From positions 1-21,127 of the IMG/VR virus record IMGVR_UViG_3300011114_000287: 21,127 nucleotides of DNA; one strand, given 5' to 3'. The translations under genes were made by a program, and so were the position numbers. The DNA is from a virus. Below are positions 1 to 15,977 of the stretch, in pieces (the stretch's first letter is position 1; each line of letters starts with the position of its first letter). Under the pieces are notes generated by a model. That model was not told the DNA's origin. It searched no databases and was given only the letters and a program-made list of their open reading frames with translations.

Positions 1-683
1 GGAATATAGCGGTATATGACATACCTTCTGGCGATTATGGTGGCACAAGAGAGGTTGCTGGAATTACTGATAAGTATCATCCAGAAGCCTTTAAGCGCAT
101 AGAGGCATTGCCTGCAAGCCAGAGAGAAAAGGCGAGCGCAGACTATGTCTTGGATTATACGGCTCCAATTGCAAATGTAGTTCCAGATCCGCTAAAGGCG
201 CACGCCGTTGATCTTGGTTTTAATCGTGGTCCTGGCGGGTACACCACATTGATTCAGCAAGGGCTGAATGCCTTGGGCGTGCCAGTGCGGGTTGACGGAG
301 CTTTTGGGAAAAAAACATTGGCAGCTATGGAACAAGTAGATCCAGTTCAGTTAATTAATGCAACTGAAGATGCCTACCTCCAGAGGGAACGGGCAATGGC
401 AGAGGCCGACCCAAACAGAGCGAAGCTATATCAAGGCATAGTAAATCGTTCTAATAAAAGAAGGCAATCCGCAACAATGTATGCCAAGGCCAACTTGCCA
501 TATACTGGACCATTAGAGCCAGAGGTTAGGCCTCCACCCAAAAAGAATGTGGATGAATCTTCCCCAAGATACGCAATGGCAAACCTACCTTATACTGGTC
601 CGCTAGAGCCAGAAGTTAAACCTCCACGCAAGGAAGAGGTTGAGGGGTATGAGCCAAGACCTCTTGGGCTTGGGCTGAGTTAG
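1..683 (+). CDS. Endolysin, GH108-type lysozyme with peptidoglycan-binding domain (5' partial)
   Basis: The frame is open from base 3, so the gene starts before the window. The first visible residues include GDYGGTREVAGIT, which matches the region just after the catalytic EGG motif of glycoside hydrolase family 108 lysozymes (usually EGGY..DP.D.GG.T.yGIT). The catalytic Glu itself would lie upstream and is not visible. Next comes a segment around HAVDLGFNRGPGG followed by LGVPVRVDGAFGKKTLAAM, typical of the C-terminal PG_binding_3 domain of this family. Such enzymes cut the glycan strands of host peptidoglycan at lysis, or locally during DNA entry if carried on the virion. After the enzyme part there is a proline-rich tail with two 30-residue repeats, unusual for a simple endolysin. 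The stop shares two bases with the stop of the convergent gene. An internal TTG at 108 is not needed as a start. The family call is from motifs by eye. Confidence 0.8.
   Translation, partial: NIAVYDIPSGDYGGTREVAGITDKYHPEAFKRIEALPASQREKASADYVLDYTAPIANVVPDPLKAHAVDLGFNRGPGGYTTLIQQGLNALGVPVRVDGAFGKKTLAAMEQVDPVQLINATEDAYLQRERAMAEADPNRAKLYQGIVNRSNKRRQSATMYAKANLPYTGPLEPEVRPPPKKNVDESSPRYAMANLPYTGPLEPEVKPPRKEEVEGYEPRPLGLGLS
480..659 (+). repeat. Two tandem 30-residue repeats in the lysozyme tail
   Basis: Two 90-base units (480-569 and 570-659) encode near-identical segments. Both contain the core ANLPYTGPLEPEV followed by a basic proline-rich stretch and end in PR. The DNA differs mainly at third codon positions, so the amino-acid sequence seems to be under selection. 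Function is unknown; a linker or an anchoring tail is possible. Confidence 0.85.
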
Positions 684-7060: not shown

Positions 7061-7251
7061 TGCAAGTCGAGGCTAAAGATCGCCTCAAGTGGGCGCGCGA
7101 GATCCTTTCAATTGCACGCGACAAGCTTGTAGTTGAAAGGGATCGCGCTTCTCATGGCCATGCAATCGACATGATCCAGATTATTACGATGGTGGATGCG
7201 GCGGCTTTGATAGCAAAGGAAATACTGGAGGAAGATGAAAAGCAAGGATGA
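7060..7251 (+). CDS. Hypothetical helical protein (63 aa)
   Basis: ATG 7060 overlaps the preceding stop (TAATG). The protein is mainly helical, with basic and acidic repeats (LKWAREILSIARDKL) and a C-terminal acidic end. Its stop at 7249-7251 overlaps ATG 7248 of a second reading frame in the methyltransferase gene (ATGA). The methyltransferase itself starts at 7235 inside this gene. I do not recognise it. Confidence 0.6.
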   Translation: MQVEAKDRLKWAREILSIARDKLVVERDRASHGHAIDMIQIITMVDAAALIAKEILEEDEKQG

Positions 7252-8101
7252 GAAAACACACCTCGACTTATTTAGCGGGATCGGAGGATTTGCCTTGGCA
7301 GCAAAGTGGAATGGATATAGAACCGTTGGCTTCTGTGACAACGAACCCTACGCCCAAGCAGTCCTTAAAAAACACTGGCCAGATGTGCCGTGCCACAAAG
7401 ACATCCGCGAAGTACGAGGCGAGCTATACGCAGGAGTCACTCTTCTCACGGGTGGATTCCCATGCCAACCATTCTCAGTCGCAGGCAAGCAACGAGGCAA
7501 GGATGACAACCGTTACCTCTGGCCAGAAATGTTGCGCGTTATACAAGAAGCAAGGCCAACTTGGATCATTGGTGAGAATGTTGCTGGGATCGTCAACTTG
7601 GCACTCGACCAGGTGTGTGCTGACTTGGAAGGTCAAGGTTACGAAGTCGAACCGATCATTATTCCAGCTTGCGCCGTTGACGCGCCACACCGAAGAGACA
7701 GGGTTTGGATTGTGGGCCACTCCAAACTCGATGGACTCACTGCCTCCAAGACAAGCAGAGGATTGCTCGACAAATCAGAAGAACAGAGAGGGAAGATCGA
7801 GAAGCGGGAACTTGCGGGAACAAGTTGTGCATCCTCGGATGTGGCCGACACCGTCAGCCAACGAGGATGCGGCGGGAACTCCGAAGGGCAATATGCAGAA
7901 GATGTTGGGGAATCATCCAGACATTCGCGGGACAACTCCAGAGGAGTGGCAACGTGGATCGCTGAACCCAGCGTGGGTCGAGTGGCTAATGGGATACCCA
8001 ACAGGTCACACAGACTTAAAGGATTGGGTAACGCCATCGTTCCGCAAGTCGCGTCGGAAATCATCAGATGCATCAACAAAATAATGGAGGATAACAAATG
8101 A
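7235..8101 (+). CDS. DNA C5-cytosine methyltransferase
   Basis: All diagnostic motifs are visible. DLFSGIGG (11-18) binds SAM, GGFPCQPFS (73-81) has catalytic Cys77, ENV (114-116) is motif VI, HRRDRVWIV (152-160) is motif VIII, and LGNAIVPQVA (264-273) is motif X. The last region before motif X is WIAEPSVGRVANGIPNR. The length (288 aa) is short for the family because the target recognition region (about 165-240) is small and of low complexity. It methylates cytosine in a short site not readable from sequence. This protects phage DNA from host enzymes or marks it. It starts at 7235 with GGAGG 3 bases upstream and overlaps the previous gene by 17 bases. Its stop overlaps the ATG of the glycosyltransferase at 8098 (ATGA). 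A second open frame covers 96% of it. Confidence 0.9.
   Translation: MKSKDEKTHLDLFSGIGGFALAAKWNGYRTVGFCDNEPYAQAVLKKHWPDVPCHKDIREVRGELYAGVTLLTGGFPCQPFSVAGKQRGKDDNRYLWPEMLRVIQEARPTWIIGENVAGIVNLALDQVCADLEGQGYEVEPIIIPACAVDAPHRRDRVWIVGHSKLDGLTASKTSRGLLDKSEEQRGKIEKRELAGTSCASSDVADTVSQRGCGGNSEGQYAEDVGESSRHSRDNSRGVATWIAEPSVGRVANGIPNRSHRLKGLGNAIVPQVASEIIRCINKIMEDNK
7248..8084 (+). CDS. Overlapping reading frame inside the methyltransferase gene (278 aa)
   Basis: This frame is open for 278 codons wholly inside the methyltransferase gene. Its ATG at 7248 sits in an ATGA overlap with the stop of the 7060-7251 gene, the same coupling used throughout this operon. The product contains CVLTWKVKVTKSNRSLFQLAP, GLWATPNSMD, MWPTPSANED and LNPAWVEWLMGYPTGHTDL (239-257). 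I recall this order from proteins in phages, often annotated as methyltransferase-associated. The last motif lies over the same bases that encode WIAEPSVGRVANGIPNR in the main frame. Function is unknown. I did not compare conservation, so it may be an artefact of a stop-poor region; moderate doubt. Confidence 0.45.
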   Translation: MRKHTSTYLAGSEDLPWQQSGMDIEPLASVTTNPTPKQSLKNTGQMCRATKTSAKYEASYTQESLFSRVDSHANHSQSQASNEARMTTVTSGQKCCALYKKQGQLGSLVRMLLGSSTWHSTRCVLTWKVKVTKSNRSLFQLAPLTRHTEETGFGLWATPNSMDSLPPRQAEDCSTNQKNREGRSRSGNLREQVVHPRMWPTPSANEDAAGTPKGNMQKMLGNHPDIRGTTPEEWQRGSLNPAWVEWLMGYPTGHTDLKDWVTPSFRKSRRKSSDASTK

Positions 8102-12121: not shown

Positions 12122-12392
12122 AGAGCAGTTGAAGGTAGCGCACAAGTTCATTGGCCTGCTTCAACGAGAGAACGCTCAGTTGCATGGCGTTCTACGCTTG
12201 CTAGGTCAATTGGTTGATGATATGAATGCAAACTGCTCCTATGAAGTATTTGAAGTGCAATGGAACAGCCTTACAGAGCAGGTTAAGAGGCTGTCTGGAT
12301 TCTTTGAGAGCCACCAGAAGGCACTACAATCGCTCCACGATGCCTGTCCTAGCGTTTGGGATGAGGATGAGGTAGATGATGACATACAATAG
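12108..12392 (+). CDS. Hypothetical coiled-coil protein (94 aa)
   Basis: The open frame has TTG 12108 as the earliest likely start, overlapping the previous gene by 14 bases, with a purine-rich AAGGGCGGG upstream. The product has heptad-like helices (RENAQLHGVLRLLGQLVDDM) and a long acidic C-terminus ending DEDEVDDDIQ. It may be an acidic interaction partner. Function unknown; the exact start is unsure. Confidence 0.5.
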   Translation: MNHDREQLKVAHKFIGLLQRENAQLHGVLRLLGQLVDDMNANCSYEVFEVQWNSLTEQVKRLSGFFESHQKALQSLHDACPSVWDEDEVDDDIQ

Positions 12393-13050
12393 CCTTGGTT
12401 ATTTTTGGTATGTCTATAAAACAACATGCGCCATTAACGGAAAGGTTTATGTTGGGGTTCACAAGGCCAAAAAAATACTAAATAACTACATAGGGTGCGG
12501 AGTTGTGTCTGATGTTTCGGCAAAAAGAAGAGCATTAAAGATTAAATCGCCATTCGTGCAGGCAGTTGCAAAGCATGGATACGAAAACTTCAATAAAGAA
12601 ATATTAAAAAGATTTGATAATGCAGATGATGCTTACAATATGGAGGCTCAAATTGTAAATGAAGAGTGGATAAGGTCTGGCAATTCCTACAATGTTGCTC
12701 TAGGTGGCCGAAAAGCTGGCAAGCCCAGCAAATACTCTCATTTATTTGCAAAATGGAAAAGTTTGTATGAATCTGGGATGACCATGAAAGAAATAGCCAG
12801 AATAACTGGACTCAGTAGCCATGCTGCAATTAGTATAAATTTAGACAATATCGTTACAAAAAGAAAAAAATATCTTATTGCAAACAAGGCAAGAGAAATG
12901 AAATTATTTTGTATTGAGCTTGGCAAGTACTACAATTCGCAAAAAGATTTTTTGCTCGAAAGATTTGGAGACTGTAGGTCAGCAGGGAATTTGTCTGTTG
13001 CAATAAAGAATAGACTCAAGTTTAGAGGTCTAACCGTGGTAAGAGCATAA
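12376..13050 (+). CDS. GIY-YIG homing endonuclease
   Basis: The 224-residue protein has the GIY-YIG core: YVYKTT (12-17), KVYVGVHKAKK (23-33), and a catalytic Glu at 90 in AYNMEAQIV. The C-terminal half has a helix-turn-helix segment (MTMKEIARITGLSSHAAIS), as in Seg-like homing enzymes. These free-standing endonucleases cut a recipient genome and copy themselves in. The gene is clearly AT-rich compared with its neighbours and starts inside the preceding small gene (17-base overlap), so it is probably an insertion between otherwise adjacent phage genes. A second ATG lies at 12379. Confidence 0.75.
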   Translation: MMTYNSLGYFWYVYKTTCAINGKVYVGVHKAKKILNNYIGCGVVSDVSAKRRALKIKSPFVQAVAKHGYENFNKEILKRFDNADDAYNMEAQIVNEEWIRSGNSYNVALGGRKAGKPSKYSHLFAKWKSLYESGMTMKEIARITGLSSHAAISINLDNIVTKRKKYLIANKAREMKLFCIELGKYYNSQKDFLLERFGDCRSAGNLSVAIKNRLKFRGLTVVRA

Positions 13051-13281: not shown

Positions 13282-13446
13282 ATGGCAAAGGTAGCCAAAA
13301 AAACACGCCACAATGCCTCAAAATCGAGCAAGGATGCCACTAGAAAGCATCTTTGCAGTAAGGCTGATGCTCCAGACCTTCCAGTGGTCAAATTTAAGGT
13401 TGAGGAACTAGGAAACAAAGCCTGCTGTTGCAGTATTGGTCGTTAG
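13282..13446 (+). CDS. Small hypothetical protein (54 aa)
   Basis: ATG 13282 follows the previous stop directly, and the frame closes at TAG 13444. The product is basic in its first half (MAKVAKKTRHNASKSSKDAT), acidic in the middle and ends with CCCSIGR, a Cys cluster. No family known. It is the last rightward gene before the leftward block. Confidence 0.5.
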   Translation: MAKVAKKTRHNASKSSKDATRKHLCSKADAPDLPVVKFKVEELGNKACCCSIGR

Positions 13447-13474
13447 GCTGACGCTCCCGCCAACACTCACCAAG

Positions 13475-13657
13475 CTACCGTTTAATAGCTGGCCTACCGT
13501 TTTCGGTCCGCCACTTTTGCCAACGCTCCCGTTGAGCCTGCGCCACCGTTTGGTAATGCTCCCGCGAAAGCTTGCGTGCCTTGCAAGCTCCTTTGACGCT
13601 CCCGCCTTTCTTACCTAGGCGCGAAAGGTAGGCTTTGATAATTTCATCTTCAGTCAT
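13475..13657 (-). CDS. Small basic leftward protein (60 aa)
   Basis: The product (MTEDEIIKAYLSRLGKKGGS, then KARKLSREHYQTVAQAQR and RERWQKWRTENG) resembles small phage/plasmid proteins with an LGKKGGS motif and a basic helical tail, possibly DNA-binding. Two copies of a 14-base motif and a promoter-like pair lie upstream at 13680-13727. Another AAACGG motif overlaps its own stop codon. It ends the leftward block. Confidence 0.6.
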   Translation of the reverse strand: MTEDEIIKAYLSRLGKKGGSVKGACKARKLSREHYQTVAQAQRERWQKWRTENGRPAIKR

Positions 13658-13671
13658 ATTTTTAATAAATC

Positions 13672-13701
13672 CTTATAGGCTGCGCTGCCGTTTATTGTAA
13701 A
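13672..13701 (-). promoter_or_regulatory. Possible leftward promoter
   Basis: On the minus strand TTTACA is followed 18 bases later by TATAAG, 15 bases before ATG 13657. One of the repeated AAACGGCAGCGCAG motifs lies in the spacer. The start point would be very near the ATG. TATAAGG might instead be a ribosome site. Confidence 0.35.
13680..13695 (-). repeat. Repeat motif copy 1 (AAACGGCAGCGCAG)
   Basis: Exact copy of a 14-base motif, extended to ATAAACGGCAGCGCAG on the minus strand. It lies 22 bases upstream of the gene starting at 13657. Confidence 0.75.
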
Positions 13702-13711
13702 GTTTTATTGC

Positions 13712-13727
13712 CTGCGCTGCCGTTTAT
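13712..13727 (-). repeat. Repeat motif copy 2 (AAACGGCAGCGCAG)
   Basis: Second exact copy, 32 bases from copy 1 in the same orientation, with the same ATA extension. It lies between the terminator of the preceding leftward gene and the next start. Confidence 0.75.
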
Positions 13728-13734
13728 GGGCAAG

Positions 13735-13766
13735 CAGAAAAGCCGTTGGGGTTTGAACCCTTCGGC
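13735..13766 (-). terminator. Leftward rho-independent terminator
   Basis: On the minus strand GCCG (13766-13763) pairs with CGGC (13745-13742). A second GC stem (CCC with GGG) lies inside and TTTTCT follows directly. It lies 16 bases past the stop of the gene ending at 13782. The inner GGGTTCAAACCC resembles a tRNA T-arm, but no tRNA is present. Confidence 0.6.
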
Positions 13767-13781
13767 GGGGTTAGTTATTTA

Positions 13782-13982
13782 TTACGCCTCGATATTGTCC
13801 CAATCTCTGATAACTACGTTTATACTTTCGGGCTTGCTAACTACTTCCGCAACACCGCCGCGAACGTCAATGACTACTGTTATAGATTCATAATGCTTCT
13901 TCAGTCGCACCGCTTCCTCGAATAGCTTACTCATTCTAGCGTTATACCTTTGCGCTCCTGTTCTTGTCTTAATCATTTTCAT
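13782..13982 (-). CDS. Hypothetical leftward protein (66 aa)
   Basis: Starts with ATG directly after a purine-rich AAAGAGGAT ribosome site. The C-terminal half has the pattern SITVVIDVRGGVAEVVSKPE, then INVVIRDWDN, a strand-turn-strand pattern seen in several small phage proteins. No function can be assigned. The upstream junction carries copy 3 of the repeat motif, a mini-hairpin and a long hairpin. Confidence 0.65.
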   Translation of the reverse strand: MKMIKTRTGAQRYNARMSKLFEEAVRLKKHYESITVVIDVRGGVAEVVSKPESINVVIRDWDNIEA

Positions 13983-14021
13983 ATCCTCTTTCTTTCTTAT
14001 TCATTCACGCAATCAATACGA

Positions 14022-14035
14022 CTGCGCTGCCGTTT
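14022..14035 (-). repeat. Repeat motif copy 3 (AAACGGCAGCGCAG)
   Basis: Exact 14-base copy, 40 bases upstream of the start at 13982, in the same orientation as the others. Confidence 0.75.
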
Positions 14036-14065
14036 GGAGTGGGTAACCCTATCGGGTCAATCCAT

Positions 14066-14099
14066 CCTCCGTTCCCCTCCGTTACGAGGGGAAACGAGG
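14066..14099 (-). other. Long hairpin after the clamp-like gene
   Basis: The stem 14066-14079 pairs with 14086-14099: four pairs, a two-base mismatch, then eight pairs, with a six-base loop. It lies five bases past the stop of the clamp-like gene. There is no U-run. The same geometry recurs at 14717-14750. A mini-hairpin ACCC-TATC-GGGT (14046-14057) lies on its other side. Confidence 0.65.
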
Positions 14100-14104
14100 A
14101 GAGA

Positions 14105-14641
14105 CTAAGCAGTCCTAATCGGCATAATGATTCCCCTACCATCCCCCTCCGTTGTGACCTTGATCGGACTCATATCGTTTTTCGCATCAATCTCAAGATT
14201 GATTCTATTGTTTGACGCTGATTCCCCTCCGATTGCTTTCCACAAGTTAAGCAATAATTTTGCGTCAAGTGATACCTTTAGGCTATCCTTGTAATCACCA
14301 GGTTGAACCTGCTTCCAATTGGGATAATTCCCTTCAATATATCCAAAGGATTGTTCCCCCTCAACGCTCGTAACCTTGGCGCTCCCGTTTAATTGCATGC
14401 AAGCATCAATATGATGTTTGCCGCATGCCTTACGCGCTGCCGCGAATGCCTTGGGAGGAATAATTGCCTCATGCTTATCGCTTTCTTCCAATTCAATGGG
14501 CACGATAGCCATGATCTTACCATCCGTCGCAATGGCCAACGCTCCGTCGTCAACCCTCTCAACTCTCACGCTGTTGATAATATAACGAGTTGCGTCGTCG
14601 CTTGCCGCTGCTTCTATTTTATATTTCTTATCTATTTTCAT
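14105..14641 (-). CDS. Sliding clamp (DNA polymerase III beta)-like protein, half length
   Basis: The 178-residue protein has the look of DnaN domains: INSVRVERVDDGALAIATDG followed by AIIPPKAFAAARK, then EGNYPNW, LKVSLDAKLLLNLWKAIG, and an end with GRGIIMPIR, matching the clamp C-terminal signature (…VMPMR). Bacterial beta clamp is about 370 residues with three domains; this is half, enough for about two domains, so it may form a smaller ring or bind the host clamp loader or polymerase. It is on the minus strand, away from the primase and helicase. No polymerase gene lies in the window. It starts after a GAGGAAAAGAAA ribosome region. The fold call is likely, the function inferred. Confidence 0.7.
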   Translation of the reverse strand: MKIDKKYKIEAAASDDATRYIINSVRVERVDDGALAIATDGKIMAIVPIELEESDKHEAIIPPKAFAAARKACGKHHIDACMQLNGSAKVTSVEGEQSFGYIEGNYPNWKQVQPGDYKDSLKVSLDAKLLLNLWKAIGGESASNNRINLEIDAKNDMSPIKVTTEGDGRGIIMPIRTA

Positions 14642-14677
14642 TTTCTTTTCCTCTTTTCTTTTATGTTCCGCGCATCG

Positions 14678-14693
14678 CTGCGCTGCCGTTTAT
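14678..14693 (-). repeat. Repeat motif copy 4 (AAACGGCAGCGCAG)
   Basis: Exact copy with the ATA extension, 36 bases upstream of the clamp-like gene start at 14641. Confidence 0.75.
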
Positions 14694-14716
14694 TAGGCCA
14701 TCCCGATAGGGTTTGA

Positions 14717-14750
14717 CCTCTCCTCTCCTCAGTAACGAGGAGAGACGAGG
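14717..14750 (-). other. Long hairpin upstream of the clamp-like gene
   Basis: 14717-14730 pairs with 14737-14750: four pairs, a two-base mismatch, eight pairs, six-base loop, the same geometry as the hairpin at 14066-14099 with some compensating base changes. It lies six bases past the stop of the 29-residue gene. A mini-hairpin CCC-GATA-GGG (14702-14711) is adjacent. Confidence 0.65.
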
Positions 14751-14756
14751 GAAAAC

Positions 14757-14846
14757 TTATTTCCTTTTTGGCCAGACTAGCCAGACAAAGGCGAGTAGGA
14801 GCCCGCCGTGGAGCAGGCCAAGCGCGTAAATTTGTGGGCAGTTCAT
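14757..14846 (-). CDS. Tiny membrane protein (29 aa)
   Basis: ATG overlaps the stop of the 44-residue gene (ATGA). The product has a single hydrophobic segment LLHGGLLLAFVWLVW and a basic tail PKRK, predicting one membrane helix with a cytoplasmic C-terminus. Size and topology fit a small phage membrane peptide, but function is unknown. The coupling supports it being real. Confidence 0.45.
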   Translation of the reverse strand: MNCPQIYALGLLHGGLLLAFVWLVWPKRK

Positions 14847-14977: not shown

Positions 14978-15129
14978 ATACTTTCCTCCCTCATATTTAT
15001 ATTGATACCCAAGCTTTCAAATATAGTTTCATATGCTTCTTGTCTACATGTAGCCTCAAATTGCAGGCAAGGCATGCCGCCGCCATATTGATCTTTATTG
15101 TCAAAAACTTCCACTAAGTAAGTTTTCAA
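14974..15129 (-). CDS. Small hypothetical protein (51 aa), TTG start
   Basis: The start is TTG at 15129, overlapping the ardC-like stop (TTGA), with AAAGGAG on the minus strand five bases upstream, a good ribosome site that decides the start. An in-frame GTG lies a few codons inside. The product KTYLVEVFDNKDQ, then a CLQFEATCRQEAYETI segment, suggests a small alpha/beta domain. Its stop overlaps the next start (ATGA). Unknown function. Confidence 0.55.
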   Translation of the reverse strand: MKTYLVEVFDNKDQYGGGMPCLQFEATCRQEAYETIFESLGININMREESI

Positions 15130-15977
15130 CTTTTCTCCTTTCCCATAATGAAATCATGAGCCGCCTGAGCTTTCGCAGCAGCATAAAATATCATTTTGGG
15201 ATCATTCTTCAGTACCTTTGACCAATTTTGACAGTAAGCGATTGCGTTTTCCTCAACTTCAGCGCGATTGATGCCCGATGATTGACATAAGAATTGCGCG
15301 CCAATCTCGGCCACAAGTTCCTCTTTCGCATACTTTTCGCTCCCAAAGTTTCCGCCAAGATCGCGCTCTAGTCGCGACTCATGGCCCGTTGAATGCGTCA
15401 ATTCATGAAACAAGGTGTCATAATATGCGCTTCCGCTTGTCCAGTGCGCCGTTTTCGGCGGCATGTTGACAATATCTTGACTAGGGATATAGCAAGCGCG
15501 CGAACCATCTACAATTTTTGGAGCGCGCGGCATTCGTTTGATTATGTGATCCGCTTCCACGATTTGCGCTACTGGTTCACTCGCCGCCTCTCGCTCAGGC
15601 ATACCATCACACTGTGACGCATTGAACACTGTGTAGTGCTTCATGAAGCGAAAAGTTTTCGCCTTTCCGCTTGTCTCACCTTCCCCGCTCTCATTCTCTC
15701 CACTCTTTTTGATTGTGGAATAGAATATGACAGGCCAGCCCTTTTCCCCCTTTCTAACTTGCGCGCCAAGCGCGGCGGCTTGCTTATAGGTTAAGAAACG
15801 AGGATCAGGATAGTGACTCGCCAAGTTTAACACTAGCGCGTTTACTCCTCTATACTCTGAGCCGCTGATGGCATTATGAGCCGCGCAGCTTCTCCATGGT
15901 TTGCGCCAGGGAATTTCACCCTTCCCAAGCGCCTCAACTATCTTTTCAACTATGCGGTTTGTATCTTCATTATTCAT
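15126..15977 (-). CDS. ardC: ArdC-like antirestriction protein
   Basis: The 283-residue protein starts with an N-terminal ssDNA-binding-type domain (IPWRKPWRS, YRGVNALVL, FLTYKQAAALGAQVRKGEKG), the mark of ArdC. A C-terminal zinc-metallopeptidase domain follows with HELTHSTGH (191-199), and Glu224 in EELVAEIGA is a likely third zinc ligand. All catalytic residues are intact. ArdC proteins protect incoming DNA from type I and type II restriction. The name refers to this family; the exact target in this host is unknown. It is the largest gene of the leftward block. A second gene lies upstream at 16350, and the gene after it is coupled. Confidence 0.85.
   Translation of the reverse strand: MNNEDTNRIVEKIVEALGKGEIPWRKPWRSCAAHNAISGSEYRGVNALVLNLASHYPDPRFLTYKQAAALGAQVRKGEKGWPVIFYSTIKKSGENESGEGETSGKAKTFRFMKHYTVFNASQCDGMPEREAASEPVAQIVEADHIIKRMPRAPKIVDGSRACYIPSQDIVNMPPKTAHWTSGSAYYDTLFHELTHSTGHESRLERDLGGNFGSEKYAKEELVAEIGAQFLCQSSGINRAEVEENAIAYCQNWSKVLKNDPKMIFYAAAKAQAAHDFIMGKEKS

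Follow-up and report, generated by a model that had tools for sequence, protein, structure and literature searches.

Three consecutive leftward genes of one virus contig are each preceded by a stop codon, a hairpin and a 14-base motif. What is this intergenic unit, and does it act as DNA or as RNA? The contig, IMG/VR record IMGVR_UViG_3300011114_000287, was analysed over its whole length of 21,127 bases, hereafter the window. The initial annotation offered three guesses: a phage-specific promoter, a terminator or an RNA processing module. The sequence comparisons described here leave the RNA processing module as the best remaining candidate, while neither the promoter nor a canonical intrinsic terminator stood up.

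The motif AAACGGCAGCGCAG is present in the four exact minus-strand copies claimed (Table 1). With up to 3 mismatches allowed, it has 9 matches in the window versus 2.3 expected, and none of 100 shuffles reached 9. The order of stop, hairpin, motif and start was borne out at all three junctions. The hairpin of junction 3 (before 13657) is different: it is short, with the loop GGTTCAAACC and TTTT, and two copies of the motif come after it. Both long hairpins show the described geometry of four pairs, a two-base mismatch, eight pairs and a six-base loop (CCTC-2-N8-6-N8-2-GAGG at 14066-14099 and 14717-14750), and compensating changes between them are found at two P3 positions (C-G/T-A and T-A/C-G), again as claimed. 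The long hairpins extend further than had been described, into a helix P1 that starts at the stop codon of the upstream gene, and a second hairpin (P4-P5) and a motif-containing hairpin (P6) had been overlooked.

Table 1. Features of the junction locus in the window, listed leftward
Feature	Position	Strand	Remarks
Single-span membrane-protein-like gene, 29 aa (32 aa in relatives)	14757..14846	-	Fixed left border; tblastn in 35 loci
Junction 1 long hairpin P1-P2-P3	14710..14757	-	P2/P3 core 14717-14750; starts at TAA stop codon; geometry and covariation in relatives
Junction 1 P4-P5	14695..14719	-	AGGTCA..TGGCCT, CCC-TATC-GGG; overlaps 3' strands of P1 and P2; folds in all distinct variants, P5 covaries
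Junction 1 motif AAACGGCAGCGCAG	14678..14691	-	GCGCA pairs with TGCGC (14670-14674) as P6
Cargo gene 1, short DNA polymerase III beta (sliding clamp) domain protein, 178 aa	14105..14641	-	Pfam PF02767, E 1.2e-9; PHROG processivity factor
Junction 2 long hairpin P1-P2-P3	14059..14107	-	Core 14066-14099; TAG stop codon at P1 base
Junction 2 P4-P5	14036..14069	-	Alternative to P1-P2
Junction 2 motif	14022..14035	-	GCGCAGTC (14020-14027) pairs with GATTGCGT (14007-14014) as P6
Cargo gene 2, 66 aa	13782..13982	-	In several relatives, with different hairpins and leaders; weak PHROG matches only
Junction 3 (type B) hairpin	13742..13766	-	GCCGAAGGGTTCAAACCCCAACGGC, then TTTT; T-arm-like loop; no tRNA
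Junction 3 motif, copy 1	13712..13725	-	Pairs upstream with CTGCTTGCC
Junction 3 motif, copy 2	13680..13693	-	Followed by leader CCTATAAGGA
60-aa gene	13475..13657	-	Fixed right border; 122 IMG/VR relatives

Single-strand folding gives junctions 1 and 2 a stability about 4 s.d. above that of dinucleotide shuffles (z -4.01 and -4.08), and the fold of junction 3 is less marked (z -2.1). A scan of the window against Rfam gave no match above the gathering score. A covariance model built from 64 junctions (alignment A1) scores 88.8 and 72 bits in the window, values that follow by construction because both window units sit in the model's own alignment. The type B hairpin, GGGTTCAAACCCC, is tRNA T-arm-like and nearly invariant in relatives; despite this likeness no tRNA was predicted there.

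The 60-aa gene that borders the array has 122 relatives in IMG/VR, and 80 of these loci were fetched. The element is present in 77 of the 80, and in the other three (L158, L170 and L188) the contig ends just upstream of the 60-aa gene. The motif was likewise found upstream of genes in the relatives. In 20 of 20 larger records, up to 39 kb long, the element occupies a single locus, where the model has one to three strong matches on the sense strand; the echoes of the model on the opposite strand are weak and arise from the palindrome. The large terminase of the relatives is 83-99% identical to that of the window, one distant contig excepted. The linker is thus, as far as these records show, fixed in one genus-like group of uncultured lake phages.

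A distant DNA search returned no similar DNA in cultured phages, whose nearest relatives of the window terminase are those of Akkermansia phages, at 38%. The 21 terminase relatives in bacterial genomes belong mostly to Verrucomicrobiota (Verrucomicrobia subdivision 3, Luteolibacter, Haloferula and Akkermansia), and the host is therefore probably a member of this phylum. The exact CCTAAYAAACGGCAGCGCAG gave no match in bacterial genomes, nor did the covariance model in 194 genomes of one phylum, a search run under stricter filters and without a positive control. One match lies at the end of a short contig from a lake MAG bin that carries the phage terminase as well. Among the matches listed in an exact 14-mer scan of IMG/VR, the single matches outside the group are mostly due to chance.

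The relatives allow a closer examination of what selection maintains. Across them the long hairpin consists of P1 (5 bp), a 2x2 internal loop, P2 (4 bp), a second 2x2 loop and P3 (8 bp). In A1, which was aligned by sequence and not by structure, 97.9% of the cells of P1-P2-P3 are paired and two-sided changes occur at 11 of the 17 pairs, kinship among the sequences inflating such counts of compensated cells. The covariation score of A1 is 0.482 versus 0.231 +/- 0.010 in shuffles, 0 of 500 of which attained it, and register-slid controls, in which the partner was moved by one to three columns, gave at most 0.21. Over 104 model matches the score is 0.537 versus 0.262 when shuffled, a figure that leans towards structure because that alignment was fitted to structure.

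The strand on which the structure acts can be read from its imperfect pairs. Hairpins were picked by Watson-Crick pairs only, which treats G-U and A-C alike. On the sense strand G-U outnumbers A-C by 48 to 1 when 10 or more of 12 pairs are required (83 hairpins), and by 54 to 5 when 9 or more suffice (91 hairpins). Neither DNA nor an RNA of the opposite strand would give this excess; the element therefore appears to act as mRNA. The 5' arm almost always consists of pyrimidines and the 3' arm of purines, and conservation extends to the 2x2 internal loop GU/C[GA]. The suggestion that selection acts on the structure is strongly supported by the covariation in both sets and by the strand-specific tolerance of G-U. 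As judged from the aligned sequences, P1-P3 and P5 are shown to be under selection at the RNA level.

P4-P5 folds in every distinct linker, from the AGG of the 3' strand of P2 to the CCT before the motif. The pairing of an element's own flanks is worth -6.5 kcal/mol versus -4.5 for flanks crossed between elements (0 of 1000 permutations). P5 covaries, its second pair being C-G in 37, G-C in 29, T-A in 18 and G-T in 2 cases. P4 alone is mostly invariant within one length class (A4) and shows little covariation; that of A4 lies in P5. P4 and P1-P2 are mutually exclusive because they use the same nucleotides. When the 5' strands of P1 and P2 are blocked, the alternative costs 3.9 kcal/mol on average versus 9.5 with a shuffled downstream part, all these folding energies being predictions for one RNA without proteins.

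In P6 the 3' half of the motif (GCGCA) pairs with a downstream partner that differs between leader classes. P6 is present, with different partners, in leader classes i-iv and vii, and in class i it reaches -12.6 versus -3.6 when shuffled. In two loci (L105 and L173) an altered motif (CCGC) is matched by an altered partner (GGUGG). In type B the motif pairs upstream instead of downstream.

The element is tied to the end of the preceding gene. Of 124 elements, 91 have the first base of the upstream stop codon 8 or 9 nt ahead of P2, a number that rises to 103 for distances of 8 to 11 nt; TAG or TAA makes or touches the base of P1. These counts show a stop codon held in a fixed position relative to the hairpin, at least among the elements compared. 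In toeprinting, a ribosome holding a stop codon in its A site protects about 12 nt, counted from the codon's first base. Such a footprint would match the 5' strands of P1 and P2 and leave out P3, a coincidence that is suggestive only. Given the competing helices and this expected coverage by a terminating ribosome, the junction might work as a switch gated by translation: either the long helix or a form with P3 and P4-P5 may be selected according to whether the upstream gene is translated.

The genes between the elements vary, within fixed borders. The locus runs from a 32-aa membrane gene through an element and a cargo gene, optionally a further element and cargo, to a type B element and the 60-aa gene; a homologue of the membrane gene precedes the first element in 49 of 86 elements. 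The proteins encoded after the element fall into 51 clusters of unrelated small genes, a number that includes the terminal 60-aa family and a few possibly miscalled short frames. Nine cargo families and the 60-aa protein have no Pfam match above the curated cut-off, and their PHROG matches are weak or of unknown function. The 178-aa cargo protein of the window stands alone, and its match to the DNA polymerase III beta clamp is limited to the central domain; its homologues occupy the same slot in a few relatives.

Four hairpin classes combine with up to eight leader classes, and one gene family may be linked to three or four classes of hairpin and to several leaders. A set of 23 unrelated genes has the leader AAACGGCAGCGCAGTC..GATTGCGCGAATGAAAGAAAGAAAGAGGATATG, as far as the start codon, in common; the listed sequences carry this point rather than averages, the information profile around the start codon being blurred by indels. 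Leader class vi has no motif, so the motif is separable and the hairpin half can do without it. Gene, hairpin type and leader type are thereby shown, within the sampled loci, to assort independently, as in a modular array.

Several other features lie around the array. The 60-aa gene and its 3' flank (13400-13640, minus strand) hold degenerate copies of the motif, AAACGGTGGCGCAG at 13538 among them, and the repeated CGGGAGCG; relatives carry longer arrays of AACGG[TA]AGCGTAG and CCTATAAGG after this gene. A homing-endonuclease-like gene (phrog_314; 12376-13050, plus strand) adjoins the 3' end of the leftward cluster. Upstream of the array is an ArdC-like anti-restriction gene (15126-15977, minus strand), which was rejected as a fixed part of the locus, being found in only some relatives (18 loci).

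Taken together, we favour, at about even confidence, an intercistronic element for mRNA processing or insulation that would enable genes to be swapped from stop to start, with a possible translation-gated switch. Each element begins at one gene's stop codon, stops just short of the ribosome-binding site of the gene that follows, and comprises two exchangeable halves: a 3' half of P1-P2-P3 and P4-P5, and a 5'-leader half consisting of the motif AAACGGCAGCGCAG with P6 or of a motif-less leader. On the polycistronic mRNA the long helix, of about 21 pair-equivalents or near two turns, would be cut or protected, giving each gene its own 3' end and a structured 5' leader. Because each gene would have its own defined 3' end and leader, genes could be exchanged from stop to start without disturbing their neighbours. 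For the exchange, the simplest explanation is that homologous recombination takes place in shared linkers through the phage's own enzymes: an exonuclease and a RusA-like resolvase are encoded in the window, and the records searched yielded no tyrosine integrase. Counting against this processing and insulation element, the type B hairpins do not suit processing at a long helix, and P1-P3 is interrupted by two internal loops. A bolder form makes a ribosome-gated RNA switch the universal linker of the array, the terminating ribosome flipping the junction and so setting the fate of the mRNA between swapped genes; we regard it as doubtful.

The order of hairpin and then motif before each gene, the near invariance of the motif, and gene shuffling around the element as in PeSL loci (PMC4503421) would also suit composite terminator-promoter cassettes of the T4 PeSL kind, in which the upstream transcript would stop at the hairpin and the motif would serve as a phage-specific promoter. 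TTT(T) follows the type B hairpin in 51 of 54 cases. However, the type A hairpins have no U-tract: the 8 nt that follow P4-P5 contain at most 2 T, and those behind P1 mostly 1-2. These counts lend no support to a canonical intrinsic terminator. The proposed promoter fares no better: in a test covering sigma-70-like sites the best -35/-10 score is 7.46 versus 7.54 in shuffles, showing no excess, and the one to three copies stand at a single locus per genome and not before operons. Moreover, the 3' half of the motif takes part in an RNA hairpin with compensated partners, and hairpins also occur without the motif. We consider such cassettes unlikely. A serious rival is translational control, by which a phage or host protein or an RNA binds the structured leader (P4-P6 and the motif) and tunes translation of the cargo. 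The motif and P6 are situated 20-50 nt upstream of start codons and recur in front of the 23 unrelated genes, and the SAS sites of mycobacteriophages provide a precedent (PMC3203893). Yet the long hairpin goes with the stop codon rather than with the start, and direct occlusion is not expected because the ribosome-binding site and start codon fall outside the hairpins; this reading, too, seems unlikely.

Site-specific recombination on folded DNA, integron-like or of another cassette system, would have the structure kept for a recombinase. One site per gene, many unrelated small genes and a structure more conserved than its sequence are in line with it, and phages can carry attC clusters without an integrase (PMC9892861). 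On the other hand, the RYYYAAC..GTTRRRY pair occurs in only 4 of 126 elements versus 1 expected, and a tyrosine recombinase (PF00589) was detected in 0 of 20 records, though one may act in trans. The tolerance of G-U is limited to the sense strand and points to RNA, and P6 and the leaders follow translation signals. This explanation is very improbable.

Two further observations concern other parts of the window. Overlapping long frames at 7235-8101 and 7248-8084 (plus strand) match the DNA methyltransferase PHROGs phrog_363 and phrog_1008, which suggests either true overlapping coding or a shared ancestral frame in a cytosine methyltransferase gene. An endolysin-like gene contains two tandem 90-base repeats (466-645, plus strand; YTGPLEPEV repeat).

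If the processing and insulation element is real, it would represent a natural standardised linker, making small phage genes plug-and-play by design rules that operate at the RNA level rather than the DNA level. The locus marks where a common group of uncultured lake phages appears to store fast-changing small genes, and the covariance model is a direct means of locating the element. With a sliding-clamp fragment as cargo and an ArdC-type gene just upstream, it may be a good place to look for new host-takeover and anti-defence proteins.

Intercistronic RNase III sites of phage T7 lie between early genes and form a stem with an internal loop and about two helical turns. The present hairpin, with 17 pairs and two 2x2 loops over about two turns, resembles them in shape only; unlike them it is repeated, exchangeable and tied to a stop codon, and its cleavage is putative. 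PeSL elements have reportedly been treated by Arbiol et al. (2010) and Comeau et al. (2014). In T4-type phages they are repeated intergenic stem-loop cassettes flanking shuffled small genes in a plastic locus (PMC4503421). The present element likewise flanks shuffled genes in a plastic region, with about 50 cargo clusters and combinatorial hairpins and leaders. It differs from the PeSL early promoter in having no sigma-70-like excess over shuffles, and from the PeSL stem-loop terminator in that type A has no U-tract, TTT(T) being found in type B. Further differences are the competition between two of its hairpins, the additional motif hairpin, the start of the long hairpin at the stop codon and the covariation at the RNA level.

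The SAS/ESAS of Cluster K mycobacteriophages are short conserved motifs immediately upstream of the starts of different gene families, with an inverted repeat upstream in about half of them, and the authors found little support for an mRNA hairpin (PMC3203893). Their motif GGGATAGGAGCCC stands directly before start codons and the sites are spread over the genome, whereas AAACGGCAGCGCAG, of unrelated sequence, lies 20-50 nt before the start at a single locus, with strong covariation. PeSL and SAS/ESAS are the nearest kinds, yet the element is filed under neither because it departs from the promoter and terminator of the one and from the motif and mRNA-hairpin characters of the other. Integron attC cassettes share with it an array of small genes and a structured site after each stop codon (PMC9892861), but the element lacks core boxes and an integrase and bears the signature of an RNA strand. 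In lambdoid phages, short conserved boundary sequences at gene borders have been proposed to provide homology for exchange (summarised in PMC3029335). The present element is similarly conserved at gene borders; unlike those sequences, it is a large structured RNA of fixed geometry at a single dedicated locus.
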